A stretch of 64,000 nt of DNA, taken from positions 2,788,001 through 2,852,000 of the forward strand of contig NZ_CP166625.1 in the NCBI RefSeq assembly GCF_041320595.1, written 5' to 3'. This DNA is from Pleomorphomonas sp. PLEO. Lineage in GTDB: Bacteria; Pseudomonadota; Alphaproteobacteria; Rhizobiales; Pleomorphomonadaceae. Under the pieces are notes generated by a model, which saw only the letters and a list, made by a program, of their open reading frames with translations, had not been told where the DNA came from and made no database searches. Shown here piece by piece: positions 4,387 to 8,539 of the stretch. A program made the position numbers and the translations under genes. Positions within the stretch are counted from its first letter, which is position 1. Each line of letters begins with the position of its first letter.

Positions 4387-4532
4387 GCCCACTTCGCTCT
4401 CTCCCTCGCAATTGTTTAAGCGGAGCCCGTCCTCTTGCGACCGCTAGCCTAGCCTTTCGCTGGCTCGTTTATGGCAGGAAGGTGCGAACTATCCACGGGA
4501 AGCTTGGCGACGCAGTTCTCCACCAAAAGGAA

Positions 4533-4559
4533 AAGGCCGCCCCCGACAGGGCGGCCTTC
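4533..4559 (-). terminator. Terminator of exported-protein gene copy A
   Basis: AAGGCCGCCC / GGGCGGCCTT stem with a CCGACA loop, about 45 bp past the stop of the gene ending at 4606. On the minus strand the stem is followed by TTTTCCTTTTGG. Nearly the same hairpin follows copies C and D of the array, and a degraded version follows copy B. Confidence 0.8.
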
Positions 4560-4605
4560 CCGACAAACGTCAGCTTTCGCCGACCGGTTGAGCTTGAGCT
4601 GACGA

Positions 4606-4971
4606 TCAGTTGCCGATCACATCGCTGTTGTCGGCATAGGGGATGTAGTGCTGCTGGGCACTCGGAGCGGCGGCGCCGGGAAGGACCAGCTTGGCCACGA
4701 AGGACGAGTCGCCCGAGGCCGCGCCCGGATCATATTCGACGACGCCCTGCGGGGAGACGCCGTGGGTGCCGATCACCACATTGCTGGCAACGGTGGCGTA
4801 ACGCTGTGCATCGGCGGCGGCAGCGGCGGCATTGGCCGGGTTGACCTGGGCCGGGACGGTGACGAACGTCGGGGAAGCGTTGTCGGCACCCGGATCGAAG
4901 GAGGTGGCAGCGTTGGCAACGGCGGGAACCAGGGCGAGGGCGAAAACGGCGGCGGTGAGGAACTTGTTCAT
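4606..4971 (-). CDS. Small exported protein of unknown function, array copy A
   Basis: I do not recognise a named family. The 121-residue product starts with a Sec signal peptide (MNKFLTAAVFALALVPAVANA, cleavage after ANA at about residue 21), leaving a mature protein of about 100 residues without cysteine. The mature part has two related units: FDPGADNASPTFVTVPAQV near residues 25-45 and YDPGAASGDSSFVAKLVLPG near 78-98. They are joined by NPANAAAAAADAQRYATV and followed by a conserved tail with YADNSDVIGN. The ATG at 4971 has GGAG 8-12 bases upstream. It is one of five tandem paralogues and carries its own terminator. A periplasmic or secreted location is inferred from the signal peptide. 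Confidence 0.8.
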   Translation of the reverse strand: MNKFLTAAVFALALVPAVANAATSFDPGADNASPTFVTVPAQVNPANAAAAAADAQRYATVASNVVIGTHGVSPQGVVEYDPGAASGDSSFVAKLVLPGAAAPSAQQHYIPYADNSDVIGN

Positions 4972-4977
4972 GGTGGT

Positions 4978-5111
4978 AACTCCGGTCTTGAATTGGGGTG
5001 TCGGTTTCTGTCGGGGGGCAGCGGTGAGCAGGAGGTCTTGTTCGCTGCCGATGACCCTTATTTGCCCCTTGCTCGATCACGGCGAAACCGGCCCTCGCTG
5101 ACGAGTGCGAG
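4978..5111. repeat. Upstream region of copy A, near-identical to 6447-6580
   Basis: By eye the 134 bases from just upstream of the copy A start match 6447-6580 (upstream of copy C) without a difference. Similarity continues into both signal-peptide coding regions and about 50 bp further out with scattered changes. This marks A and C as products of a recent duplication or gene conversion. The spacer 4972-5395 otherwise holds no gene that I can support. Confidence 0.85.
5044..5109 (-). promoter_or_regulatory. Conserved upstream block of copies A, C and E (copy A instance)
   Basis: A 66-base block is repeated at 6513-6578 (copy C, identical) and 7810-7875 (copy E, 4 differences). On the minus strand its core reads CAAGGGGCAAATAAGGGTCA. 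Retention of this block between otherwise diverged spacers suggests a promoter or operator. I could not assign -35/-10 hexamers with confidence. Confidence 0.5.
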
Positions 5112-5395
5112 GGCGAAAGTTGAACGGTGGATCGCGAAATCGTGCGCGGCGAGTTGAACGGCCGCGATGGGCTTAGGAACCACACCAGTATGCCGGGAGA
5201 AATCGGTCGGGGTTGTTCACGGATGGGCTGCGCGAGATCCGCCTTCCGTTCACGAAAGCGCATCGCGCCGGGCGAAATCTCTGGTCAGGCTGAGAAAATT
5301 CGATTAGCCGCCTCTGATCGATGCGTACGCCCGCTGCAAAGGCCTGTTGGTGGCAAATGCATCTGTCCTCTTATGCGAGCTATCCTCGCAACAGC

Positions 5396-5424
5396 AAAAA
5401 GGCCGCCCGGTTGGGGCGACCCTT
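5396..5424 (-). terminator. Imperfect terminator-like hairpin downstream of copy B
   Basis: AAGGCCGCCC then GGTTG then GGGCGACCCTT, flanked by AAAAA, so on the minus strand the hairpin is followed by TTTTTGCTGTT. It is clearly related to the hairpins after copies A, C and D but has mismatches in the lower stem. It lies 130 bp beyond the copy B stop, which fits a gene that has lost its original 3' end. Confidence 0.5.
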
Positions 5425-5553
5425 AAGAAGATCAGTGAAACGAAGGGTGGCGCGACGCCAACTTGCGTCCGCCGATACCATCATTGGGGCACTGCCAAAT
5501 GTGCTCCGCCAAGGACCGAAGCCGGCATAGGCTGTACAGCGCCAGTGCTTGTT

Positions 5554-5802
5554 TTACCTGGACCAGACGGTATTGGTCGACCCTCGGCGATGGCCGATCA
5601 ATTCGGGGTTGTCGGCGTAGGCGATTGGCTGCCTGGTGGCCTGATCCTTGTCGGCTCCCGGCACGATCAGCTTCGTCATGAAGGTGACGAAGCGGGAAGA
5701 CGCACTATCGGCCGCCCCTCCGGAGTAGATCTGGTCCGCATTGGCTATGGCAGGGGCCAAGGCAATGGCCAAAGTCGCGGCGGCGAGGAACTTGCTATTC
5801 AT
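5554..5802 (-). CDS. Shortened exported protein, array copy B (lacks the first repeat unit)
   Basis: An 82-residue member of the five-gene family. The signal peptide (MNSKFLAAATLAIALAPAIANA) is intact and GGAG precedes the ATG. The mature part runs straight into a single unit (YSGGAADSASSRFVTFMTKL, then IVPG) and the family tail YADNPELIGHR. The whole first unit and the Ala-rich linker, about 45 residues in the other copies, are absent. The tail resembles copy E (YADNPDLIGHRAGSK) but is extended by NTVWSR. The deletion is in frame, so the protein could still be made; equally it may be a decaying copy. Function unknown. Confidence 0.6.
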   Translation of the reverse strand: MNSKFLAAATLAIALAPAIANADQIYSGGAADSASSRFVTFMTKLIVPGADKDQATRQPIAYADNPELIGHRRGSTNTVWSR

Positions 5803-6007
5803 GATGAAAACTCCAGTCCTCAATCCTTATCCTGAGTTTTGTCTTTTTTGAGAAGGCCCGACCGGTTTATTCGCCAGCAGAGCCATCATTTACGGCTTGC
5901 TCGATCAGGAGAATGCCGCTTTTGGGTGACGGCGACTCTCGGACGGTTTTCCCTCTCCCGTAGGTGGTTTCGGCAGCCGCCAGTCCCTTCTGAAGAGGTG
6001 AAACAAC

Positions 6008-6035
6008 AAAGGCCGCCCGATTGGGGCGGCCTTTT
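6008..6035 (-). terminator. Terminator of exported-protein gene copy C
   Basis: AAAGGCCGCCC, GATT loop, GGGGCGGCCTTTT: a near-perfect stem 45 bp past the copy C stop, with A and T tracts on both sides. It is closely similar in sequence to the copy A and copy D terminators. Confidence 0.8.
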
Positions 6036-6078
6036 CGATGACCGTCGTCTGTGACGATCAGTGAACTTGGTCTGACGA

Positions 6079-6441
6079 TCAGTTGCCGATCACATCGCTG
6101 TTGGCGGCATAGGGGATGTAGTGCTGCTGAGCGATCGGCGCGCTGGCACCCGGCAGGATGGTCGTGGTCACCAGATCGGTGCCGCTGGCCAGGCCCGGAT
6201 CATATTCAGTGACGGTGCTCGGCGAGACGCCGTGGGTACCGACCACCGCGCCGTCAGCGACAGTGGCGTAACGCTGGGCATCGGCGGCCGCCGCGGCGGC
6301 GTTGGCCGGATTGACCTGGGCAGGGGCGGTGACGAACGTCGGGGAAGCGTTATCGGCACCCGGATCGAAGGAGGTGGCGGCGTTGGCAACGGCGGGAACC
6401 AGGGCGAGGGCGAAAACGGCGGCGGTGAGGAACTTGTTCAT
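6079..6441 (-). CDS. Small exported protein of unknown function, array copy C
   Basis: This 120-residue product is the closest relative of copy A. The signal peptide is identical (MNKFLTAAVFALALVPAVANA), the first unit differs by one residue (FVTAPAQV for FVTVPAQV), and the linker is NPANAAAAAADAQRYATVAD. Divergence is concentrated in the second unit (YDPGLASGTDLVTTTILPG) and the tail ends IPYAANSDVIGN. The identical 5' half next to a diverged 3' half suggests partial gene conversion with copy A. The frame extends far upstream of 6441, but the ATG there has GGAG and begins the signal peptide. It has its own hairpin terminator. Function unknown. Confidence 0.8.
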   Translation of the reverse strand: MNKFLTAAVFALALVPAVANAATSFDPGADNASPTFVTAPAQVNPANAAAAAADAQRYATVADGAVVGTHGVSPSTVTEYDPGLASGTDLVTTTILPGASAPIAQQHYIPYAANSDVIGN

Positions 6442-6446
6442 GATGT

Positions 6447-6580
6447 AACTCCGGTCTTGAATTGGGGTGTCGGTTTCTGTCGGGGGGCAGCGGTGAGCAG
6501 GAGGTCTTGTTCGCTGCCGATGACCCTTATTTGCCCCTTGCTCGATCACGGCGAAACCGGCCCTCGCTGACGAGTGCGAG
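6447..6580. repeat. Upstream region of copy C, near-identical to 4978-5111
   Basis: Second member of the direct repeat described for copy A; it contains the conserved 66-base block at 6513-6578. The rest of the 6442-6904 spacer holds only the copy D terminator and no gene that I can support. Confidence 0.85.
6513..6578 (-). promoter_or_regulatory. Conserved upstream block (copy C instance)
   Basis: Identical by eye to 5044-5109 and differing at four positions from 7810-7875. A weaker trace (CTGCCGA, TTATTTG, CTTG in the same order) is visible upstream of copy D near 7347-7372. Likely holds the promoter or a shared regulator site. Confidence 0.5.
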
Positions 6581-6839
6581 TGCGGAAGTTGAACATCGGA
6601 TCGCGAAATCGTGTGCGGCGAGTTGAACGGTCGCGAGGAGGCTAAGGAAAATCCCGGCATGCCGGGTAAAACCGGACCGAATTCGCTCACGAGACGGCGC
6701 GACGGGCGTGAACGGAGCCTTGCCCGCGATCACGAAATGCGCGGTGCCCCGGGCTCAAATTTCGCGAAATTTCTCGATCAACGCTGGAAAAAGCGCGTTA
6801 GCCGCCTTTGAAAGGCCGATCGGCGCGCTTGCCATGGCA

Positions 6840-6867
6840 AAAGGCCGCCCGGTTGGGGGCGGCCTTT
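6840..6867 (-). terminator. Terminator of exported-protein gene copy D
   Basis: AAAGGCCGCCC, GGTTG, GGGCGGCCTTT: a 10-11 bp perfect stem 38 bp past the copy D stop, flanked by A and T tracts. Same design as after copies A and C. Confidence 0.8.
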
Positions 6868-6904
6868 CTGGTGGTGGCTCGCTTGTGGCGATTGAGGGAC
6901 GCCA

Positions 6905-7273
6905 TCAATAACCGATGAGGTCGCTGTTGTCGGCGTAGGGCACGTAGTGCGGGTGGGCGATCGGAGCCGTGGCGCCGGGGATGATCAGCGTGGTCGAGAA
7001 GGCCGACTGGCCGTCGGAGGCACCCGGATCGTATTCGGTAACGGGCTGGGCGGCGACGCCGTGGGTACCGATCACCGCGTTGCCATCAACGCTGGCGTAA
7101 CGCTGGGCATCGGCGGCGGCGGCGGCGGCGTTGGCCGGATTGACCTGGGTCGGCACGGCGACGAACGGCGAGGTGCCGCTATCAACGGACGGGTCGTAGA
7201 AGACTTGGCCGGCATTGGCGATGGCGGGAACGAGGGCGATGGCGAACGCGGCGGCGGCGAGGAACTTGTTCAT
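6905..7273 (-). CDS. Small exported protein of unknown function, array copy D
   Basis: This 122-residue family member is most like copy E. The signal peptide is MNKFLAAAAFAIALVPAIANA. The first unit is FYDPSVDSGTSPFVAVPTQV, the linker NPANAAAAAADAQRYASVDG, then GTHGVAAQPVTEYDPGASDG opening the second unit, and the tail ends YADNSDLIGY. The mature chain is acidic and cysteine-free, with no membrane segment. Only 99 bp separate its start from the copy E stop. No terminator is visible in that gap, so D and E may be co-transcribed with E first. Function unknown. Confidence 0.8.
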   Translation of the reverse strand: MNKFLAAAAFAIALVPAIANAGQVFYDPSVDSGTSPFVAVPTQVNPANAAAAAADAQRYASVDGNAVIGTHGVAAQPVTEYDPGASDGQSAFSTTLIIPGATAPIAHPHYVPYADNSDLIGY

Positions 7274-7372
7274 GGCGATAACTCCAATCGGGAGGTGTTC
7301 AGGGAGCTTTGTTGGGGAGGGATGGCAGCGGGGGAGGTCTCTCCACTGCCGAGGGCAAGTTATTTGGGCTTG

Positions 7373-7756
7373 TTACTTGGACCCGGCGCGATGGCCGATC
7401 AGGTCGGGATTGTCGGCGTAGGCGACGGTCGAGGAATGAACGACCGGAGCCGTGGCGCCGGGGATGACCATCTTGGTGACGAAGGCCGACTCGCCATCGG
7501 AGGCACCCGGGTCATATTCGGTGACTGCTTGGGCGGCGACGCCGTGGGTACCGATCACCGCGCCGTCGGCGACGGTGGCATAACGCTCAGCGTCGGCGGC
7601 CGCCGATGCGGCGTTGGCGGGATTGACCTGAGCGGGCAGGGCGATGAAGGGCGAGGTGCCGCTATCGACCGACGGGTCGTAAAACACCTGGCCGGCATTG
7701 GCGATGGCGGGGACGAGGGCAACGGCGAAAGCGGCGGCGGCGAGGAACTTGTTCAT
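7373..7756 (-). CDS. Small exported protein of unknown function, array copy E
   Basis: This is the promoter-most member of the array at 127 residues. The signal peptide MNKFLAAAAFAVALVPAIANA is followed by unit 1 (FYDPSVDSGTSPFIALPAQV), the linker (NPANAASAAADAERYATV), unit 2 (YDPGASDGESAFVTKMVIPG) and a tail ending YADNPDLIGHRAGSK. The ATG at 7756 is preceded by GGAG at 8-base spacing; the frame is open further upstream, but that part does not resemble the paralogues. The diagnostic family features are two Y/F-D-P units, GTHGV, and YADN(P/S)-(D/E)-(L/V)-IG. Function unknown; expression as an abundant envelope protein is a guess. Confidence 0.8.
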   Translation of the reverse strand: MNKFLAAAAFAVALVPAIANAGQVFYDPSVDSGTSPFIALPAQVNPANAASAAADAERYATVADGAVIGTHGVAAQAVTEYDPGASDGESAFVTKMVIPGATAPVVHSSTVAYADNPDLIGHRAGSK

Positions 7757-7809
7757 GATCAAAACTCCGGTCTTCATGTTTGGTTTGTTTGAAGGGGCAG
7801 CGCTTGTTG

Positions 7810-7875
7810 GCTGCCGATGACCGTTATTTGCCCCTTGGCCGATCACGGCGAAACCGGCCGTCGCTGACGAGTGCG
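7810..7875 (-). promoter_or_regulatory. Conserved upstream block (copy E instance)
   Basis: This block matches the copy A and C blocks at 62 of 66 positions, about 55 bp upstream of the copy E start. The remaining 7757-8197 spacer contains this block and, at its far end, the grxD terminator. I see no other gene in it. Confidence 0.5.
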
Positions 7876-8142
7876 CGCCAGGGAAGTGAAGAGCGGATCG
7901 CGAAAGCGTGTGCGGTCAGTTGAACGGCGGCTGCCGGGATGAGGAAAAGCGCGGTGTGCCGCGACAAACCGAGATGGTGCCGCTCACGAGCGGACCGCGC
8001 CGAACCGGTCCGCCGATCACGAAACCAATGCGACTTTCGTCTAAAAAATCTTGGGGAATGCCGGAAAACCAGCCGCCGAGGCCCTTGAAGGTCGGTCCTC
8101 TATGCGCTTTTCGTTCGATTGCGAGTGCCATAGGCAAATAAA

Positions 8143-8172
8143 AAGGCCCCCGCCGGGGTCGGCAGGGGCCTT
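8143..8172 (-). terminator. Intrinsic terminator of the pur-bolA-grxD strand
   Basis: The minus-strand stem AAGGCCCC / GGGGCCTT is followed by TTTTTATTTG and lies about 25 bp after the grxD stop. It separates the purine/iron-sulfur block from the exported-protein array. Confidence 0.85.
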
Positions 8173-8197
8173 GAAAAAGCGCAGTGAGGTTGGCCGA

Positions 8198-8539
<342 letters not shown>

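Follow-up and report, generated by a model that had tools for sequence, protein, structure and literature searches.

The 64,000-nucleotide stretch of DNA analyzed here (the window) covers positions 2788001-2852000 of the single-contig, 5.48-Mb genome of Pleomorphomonas sp. PLEO, which belongs to a genus of environmental, partly nitrogen-fixing bacteria. Between window positions 4606 and 7756 it carries a tandem array of five paralogous genes, A to E, all on the minus strand and all encoding small proteins with putative export signals: A (7373..7756, 127 amino acid residues), B (6905..7273, 122 residues), C (6079..6441, 120 residues), D (5554..5802, 82 residues) and E (4606..4971, 121 residues), with stop codons included in the coordinates. 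A and B appear to be the first and second cistrons of one unit, B lacking a promoter element of its own and no terminator being listed between the two genes in the terminator scan. C forms its own transcription unit, D is a short type with neither promoter element nor leader hairpin, and E is a mosaic.

A preliminary description of this array, made from the letters alone, had reported five exported paralogues of 82-127 residues, and these are present as described. The shared motifs it listed need qualification. All five proteins have cysteine-free mature parts (read from the sequences), a tail of the form Y-A-[DA]-N-x-[DE]-[LV]-I-G and signal peptides that end, by eye, in ANA, but GTHGV and the (Y/F)DP units are restricted to A, B, C and E. 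The entire middle is missing from D, which keeps the signal peptide, a linker and the tail YADNPELIG. Protein identity ranges from 51 to 84% overall; it is 80% between A and B, 84% between C and E, 61-67% across these pairs and 51-56% between D and the others over 69-75 aligned residues of D. Searching the genome with B retrieves A, C and E at expectation values (E) of 2.2e-41 or below and D at 4.2e-6. The five genes are not equal, D being a separate short type.

Two arrays in one genome

The search with B produced 16 matches in the whole genome. Two of them, with E of 0.77 and 0.92, are due to chance and one corresponds to D's second half; the rest are 13 family genes, 12 full-length copies and D, arranged in two arrays. 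Local amplification of one exported protein, as originally proposed, is therefore real, but the window holds only one of two such arrays. The second one comprises eight genes at 2239201-2249086, about 544 kb from the first, and B's partner there is 99% identical to it as a protein. MarR-type and thioredoxin-reductase-like genes, named by reading their sequences, lie near the second array, and genes flanking it recur next to family genes in relatives (L044, L048, L049, L113 and L115).

Several lines of evidence indicate that the two arrays exchange sequence. E matches C in its leader and signal part, at all 120 bases of two adjoining blocks, and a second-array copy (L043:6622) in its mature part, at 240 of 240 bases. 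Counting about 340 bases of upstream sequence, the A-B cassette shares 93% identity with its twin across 1270 bases. Members of both loci are intermixed in a tree built from 28 proteins (100-135 residues, five genomes), with 11 label changes against a mean of 10.4 after shuffling. The ratio of nonsynonymous to synonymous substitution rates (dN/dS) was below 1 in all 16 pairs compared; between-array twins gave 0.17 for A, 0.02 for B, 0.09 for C and 0.22 for E. On the evidence of these sequences, the arrays evolve through duplication and exchange under purifying selection.

Selection also bears on the two explanations originally offered for the amplification, need for dose and diversification. 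Under the latter, this would be a surface or signaling family whose copies vary for recognition, as adhesins, in allorecognition, as bacteriocin-like proteins or in contact with a host. The 13 copies do represent several sequence types, some of the genes are mosaic, the family is restricted to the genus, and a CTB-type bacteriocin model gives a sub-threshold score in three of 29 members searched (E 6e-4). Values of dN/dS below 1 in every pair compared, with the lowest in the twins, and core motifs conserved throughout the genus nevertheless disfavor diversification, and no secretion or immunity partner was noticed next to the genes, with no model search aimed at such partners. We consider this explanation distinctly unlikely.

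The promoter-leader element

Most copies are preceded by a common element consisting of TTTnnnCGTGA(T/A)CG, an A-rich stretch, GGTCATCG and the inverted repeat GGCAGCG-loop-CGCTGCC, whose 3' end lies 32-90 bases ahead of the start codon. On the minus strand of the window, it is found upstream of A-B (7796..7862, covariance model E 2.8e-17), C (6486..6565, E 4.7e-21) and E (5017..5096, E 4.7e-21); the A-B version reads CGTGATCG...GGTCATCG followed by a hairpin with a six-nucleotide loop that has lost its seventh pair. Between A and B, the leader hairpin of B (7324..7350, minus strand) is kept without the promoter motif, and its match to the whole model is weak (E 0.12). Ten of the 13 copies have the complete element, which occurs nowhere else in the genome at the thresholds used. 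The promoter pattern matches ten times, each time ahead of a family gene (one match for the reversed control). Among the 150 candidates scored out of 4318, the covariance model likewise has ten matches at E <= 4.3e-17, each preceding a family gene, and the next are the leaders of B's twin (E 0.066) and of B itself, with unrelated places from 0.12 upward. A sigma-70 pattern was found zero times in 4400-8200 (mean of 0.6 in shuffled sequences).

We examined 63 starts of family genes for the hairpin, three frames without a usable start (L048:7105, L109 and L118) having been dropped beforehand, and found it in 46. Of the remaining 17, ten belong to divergent subfamilies (L102-L108), four are of the short type, D among them, and the other three are L061, L062 and L114:1183. 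As read, 42 of the 46 hairpins are fully paired, and two contain double changes that still pair (GGCAACG/CGTTGCC in L048 and AGCAGCG/CGCTGCT in L049). The imperfect ones are that of L116, which is broken, those of A and its twin, which lack the seventh pair, and that of L044:7739, which the search expression caught out of register, so that one of the four mispaired rows is an artefact. The 46 hairpins comprise eight distinct arm pairs; several of them belong to genomes that are nearly the same (such as G006 and G009) and are not independent. Loops are 6-28 bases long and, read together with the 3' arm, contain ACCTCC in 36 and CCTCC in 38 of the 46 cases; as RNA, ACCUCC resembles an anti-Shine-Dalgarno sequence.

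Leaders are kept across unlinked loci. In B and its twin, second cistrons lacking the promoter motif, the hairpin persists and includes a G-U pair, an argument for a function at the RNA level. Folding of six leaders gave a single hairpin with a CCUCC-containing loop in five and none in that of A. GGTC at the leader start can pair with GACC just ahead of the ribosome-binding site in C (6486-6565) and E (5017-5096) and is in the closing helix in A (7796-7862); the corresponding sites of L048:7785 read AGTC and GACT. Between the loop and the ribosome-binding site of the same leader we could see by eye four pairs only, CUCC-GGAG. Transcription would be expected to begin just upstream of or at GGTCATCGGCAGCG. 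The hairpin probably opens the messenger RNA (mRNA) or lies close to its 5' end, followed by an A/C-rich spacer and the ribosome-binding site, and may protect or tune the mRNA. Should GGTCATC be the -10 element, the transcript from that promoter would lack part of the hairpin.

Two known systems offer partial parallels. Stem-loops in 5' leaders of the ompA type stabilize mRNA. The present hairpin could be compared with them, being likewise a leader stem-loop of genes whose exported product is apparently abundant, but here the same hairpin recurs ahead of unlinked paralogues and of a second cistron. The SmelA075/SmelA099-type small RNAs of Rhizobiales have CCUCCUCCC hairpin loops, three or four hairpins and variable stems (PMC3927594). 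They come from the same bacterial order and are similar in having an anti-Shine-Dalgarno sequence in a hairpin loop; unlike them, the element found here has one hairpin with a near-invariant stem, belongs to the leader of protein-coding genes and reads ACCUCC in most loops. Among the six folded leaders, the anti-Shine-Dalgarno loop was found and several such hairpins in one leader were not.

With a threshold of E <= 0.1, the promoter-leader model has matches in all 20 genomes searched, including those of other genera, where the strongest reaches 6.6e-6 (G017). Fourteen of the matched stretches were opened. One leads to a family-like protein (L162, E 1.7e-7; G008:C6:36090-36177, minus strand), which is exported but divergent, carries YNPSGTGD repeats and IGTHN, and is not among the matches listed by the protein profile search. 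Eight weak ones (E 1.8e-6 to 5.4e-3, including that of G017) lead to unrelated genes or none, and five strong ones are at contig ends, with the downstream gene beyond readable sequence.

At the other end of the genes, intrinsic-terminator-like hairpins were listed on the minus strand 3' of C (6008..6034), D (5398..5424) and E (4530..4561), and another one is visible by eye after B at about 6838-6867. The stems of these four hairpins are very similar (GGCCGCC...GGGCGGCC or close), as if copied with the genes. Rfam searches at E <= 5 over 4400-8200 returned eight matches, every one below its gathering score; they include two matches to Phe_leader, one per strand, that overlap the terminator after C and were rejected.

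Family relationships, distribution and architecture

The family was found in all 14 genomes of the Pleomorphomonas group and in none of six genomes from five other genera of the same taxonomic family (profile of 29 members), and its conservation thus reaches well beyond this strain. With B alone as the query, it was identified in 12 of the 13 other genomes of the genus and in none of 46 from elsewhere. The 17 loci collected come from P. oryzae, P. carboxyditropha, P. diazotrophica, P. koreensis, several Pleomorphomonas sp. and one Proteobacteria metagenome-assembled genome. Outside the genus, we obtained only marginal matches, in three of 383 other genomes of the order sample (E 9.8e-4 to 5.3e-3) and one of 384 of the class sample (E 1.6e-4 over 47 positions); since at most about ten candidates were scored per genome, weak relatives may be missed there. 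One of these four matches, a 74-residue frame without a signal peptide (L109), entered the iterated profile and was dropped from all later counts. Searches of plasmids and phages by tblastn with B gave no match, and one scan of viral contigs gave none either. As judged from the genomes compared, the family is specific to Pleomorphomonas, and its small, acidic proteins have N-termini resembling export signals and contain one or more 60-residue units.

A family gene is found next to bolA-grxD in 12 of the 14 genus genomes (the own genome and 11 of 13 others), and this home is old in the genus. The corresponding region of the other two (G007 and G008) and of the six other-genus genomes contains seven small signal-like frames, none with family motifs, and the profile search also placed no match there. 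A third home, between sugar-transport-like permease and dipeptidase-like genes (named by reading), is common to two genomes (L045:5818-6183 and L052:4932-5303). Genes around the window array, likewise named by reading their translations, are rpsD, a serine-hydrolase-like gene, grxD, bolA and purL, and they are as uninformative about function as previously stated. In L103, L104, L105, L106 and L108, and also in L044, L113 and L177, the family gene has a chemotaxis-receptor-like gene upstream of it, in the same orientation. We do not trust this clue, which may be chance, because receptors of this kind are encoded in large numbers and the family also occurs at loci without them.

Divergent subfamilies are also tandem, with three copies in L102 (5890-7625, YWDPSANSSSG) and two in L103 (5592-6464, YDPAEGEFV three times), and have shorter units; amplification thus appears to be a recurring habit of the family. 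It could in principle be neutral, a recombination-driven drift in the copy number of a small non-essential gene that brings no benefit of dose. The number of matches per genome, not always whole genes, varies strongly, from one (G008) to 13 (own genome), codon adaptation of D is low, and one copy in G011 (L048:7105) is frameshifted, all of which would fit such drift. Set against this are the retention of the family in every genus genome, the conservation of leaders across unlinked loci and the purifying selection on coding sequences, and we regard neutral expansion as quite unlikely.

Divergent relatives reveal a repeat unit of about 60 residues, (Y/F)DPAARDNDPQF...NPANAAAAKADAARYAAA...SGAVIGTHGSEGxxVVT, in the order (Y/F)DP hairpin, Ala-rich helix and GTHG turn. 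Full-length window proteins have about 1.5 units, other members have 2.5, and the core motifs are kept across the genus. In the window proteins, the tail YADNxxLIG resembles an eroded vestige of a further unit; in L049:12905 it is still preceded by NPANAEAAARDAAR. Structure prediction, suggested as a check, gave two AlphaFold models with the same order of strands and helices, both of low confidence (predicted local distance difference test scores of 52.7 and 43.2). In the L054 model, also of low confidence, helices 47-68 and 107-128 and strands 81 and 141 recur with a period of 60.

The mature parts of the 12 full-length copies have isoelectric points of 4.05-4.42, and those of A, B, C and E are about 10 kDa in size; D, in contrast, is basic (8.4). 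Three other genomes have D-like short proteins next to full-length genes (L044:6183, L049:5060 and L113:8877, the neighbor of the last being cut by a contig end), with the tail YADNP(D/E)LIGxRxG and in one case (L044:6183) a cysteine. D therefore represents a conserved type and is not simply debris. Sharing the C-terminal tail and lacking the promoter element, it may serve as an accessory short form.

The array had been described as belonging to no named family, and this holds: no Pfam or NCBIfam model reached its curated cut-off, for the mature domain or otherwise, and a sequence-profile search of PDB gave no match at E <= 1, although a fold-level relative may exist. We also scanned PHROGs, where three of the 29 members match PHROG 38448 (E 0.0011), which has no function assigned. 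Among the papers listed in literature searches on Pleomorphomonas, no title or opening of an abstract mentions such a family. Sub-threshold matches were obtained with DUF7261 (PF23922; 13.1 bits for residues 5-62 of B and 12.8 bits for A against a cut-off of 27, best E 0.062), with DUF4585 (E 4.5e-5 in L103, 23.9 of 27 bits), EpsB (E 0.0015) and rubredoxin (E 0.005), and with the bacteriocin model mentioned above. All sub-threshold names were rejected because they disagree with each other.

Two of these names correspond to functional alternatives. Two of the 29 members match M23 peptidases (PF01551) over residues 20-82, with E of 2.8e-4 and 6.6e-4, as might a missed member of a known enzyme family; the scores, 21.5 and 20.3 bits, stay below the cut-off of 28.7, and the other 27 members have no match at E <= 1, which makes membership of such a known enzyme family highly improbable. 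The HdeA-type chaperone model (NF007576) is matched by three of 29 members at E <= 0.5 (best E 0.066; protein E scores 12.5 bits, the cut-off being 85). HdeA-type proteins are acid-activated periplasmic chaperones, likewise small and exported, and would fit a product that is largely disordered, acidic and chaperone- or shield-like, made in bulk under a particular stress, its shared promoter being read by a dedicated stress sigma factor. The poor structure predictions are compatible with disorder, a single dedicated promoter precedes the genes in a region with no sigma-70 matches, and MarR-type and thioredoxin-reductase-like genes lie near the second array. However, HdeA carries two conserved cysteines that are missing from A-E, the scores are far below the cut-off, and no stress gene was noticed as a constant neighbor in the loci compared. 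A stress-protective periplasmic protein therefore appears unlikely, although we would not be greatly surprised by it.

Dose and the role of the product

Codon adaptation was measured against 24 genes encoding ribosomal proteins, elongation factors and neighbors such as adk (23 in the genus-wide comparison). It is 0.69-0.79 in the 12 full-length copies, compared with a mean of 0.716 in the reference genes and a median of 0.615 in 46 window genes. D has 0.43-0.44 in its own genome, while the short-type genes of the other three genomes have 0.63-0.70. Genus-wide, among 59 genes of at least 75 residues, the 42 with the hairpin average 0.756 and the 17 without it 0.705. We infer that the family genes are strongly expressed. 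Of the two explanations originally offered, dose is favored because codon use is at the ribosomal level, the promoter-leader is shared, twins have dN/dS of 0.02-0.22 and the arrays exchange sequence.

Combining these observations, we propose, with about even confidence, that this genus-specific protein is made abundantly, has a structural or protective rather than an enzymatic role in the periplasm, at the surface or in the culture fluid, and has been amplified for dose, each extra copy raising it. A more specific version, which we consider a long shot, has a hitherto undescribed secreted repeat protein assembling into a genus-specific matrix or envelope layer. Repeat number and copy number would then be dials of length and dose, and the leader hairpin with its anti-Shine-Dalgarno loop would act as a riboregulator that links the expression of every copy, whether in cis or in trans, to how translation is proceeding.

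Several observations weigh against amplification for dose of an abundant protein with a conserved RNA leader. The top six window genes have codon adaptation of 0.71-0.83 (rpsD 0.81), the maximum among the window genes, 0.826, is not surpassed by any of the 13 copies, and the choice of window genes followed a rough rule, so that some may be wrong frames. No fold can be claimed from the two poor models. Constraint is weaker in the short type (dN/dS 0.38-0.76 in five pairs), and two genus genomes, G007 and G008, have divergent members only. As for the hairpin, folding energies of the six leaders are only 0.8-1.6 standard deviations below those of shuffled sequences. Covariation is thin, with the two double changes and 3.5% of 2000 arm shuffles equaling the observed pairing. 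The arms alone are unspecific: the bare hairpin pattern occurs at 25 places in the genome, eight family leaders and 17 elsewhere, against eight for the reversed control.

A family present in every Pleomorphomonas genome examined is thus unnamed in any library searched. Thirteen copies, ten of them with a private control region, are often the sign of a product needed in bulk. The repeat unit and the leader hairpin offer handles on its role: an array that can be deleted, a promoter that can be searched for and a hairpin with a clear hypothesis for its loop.

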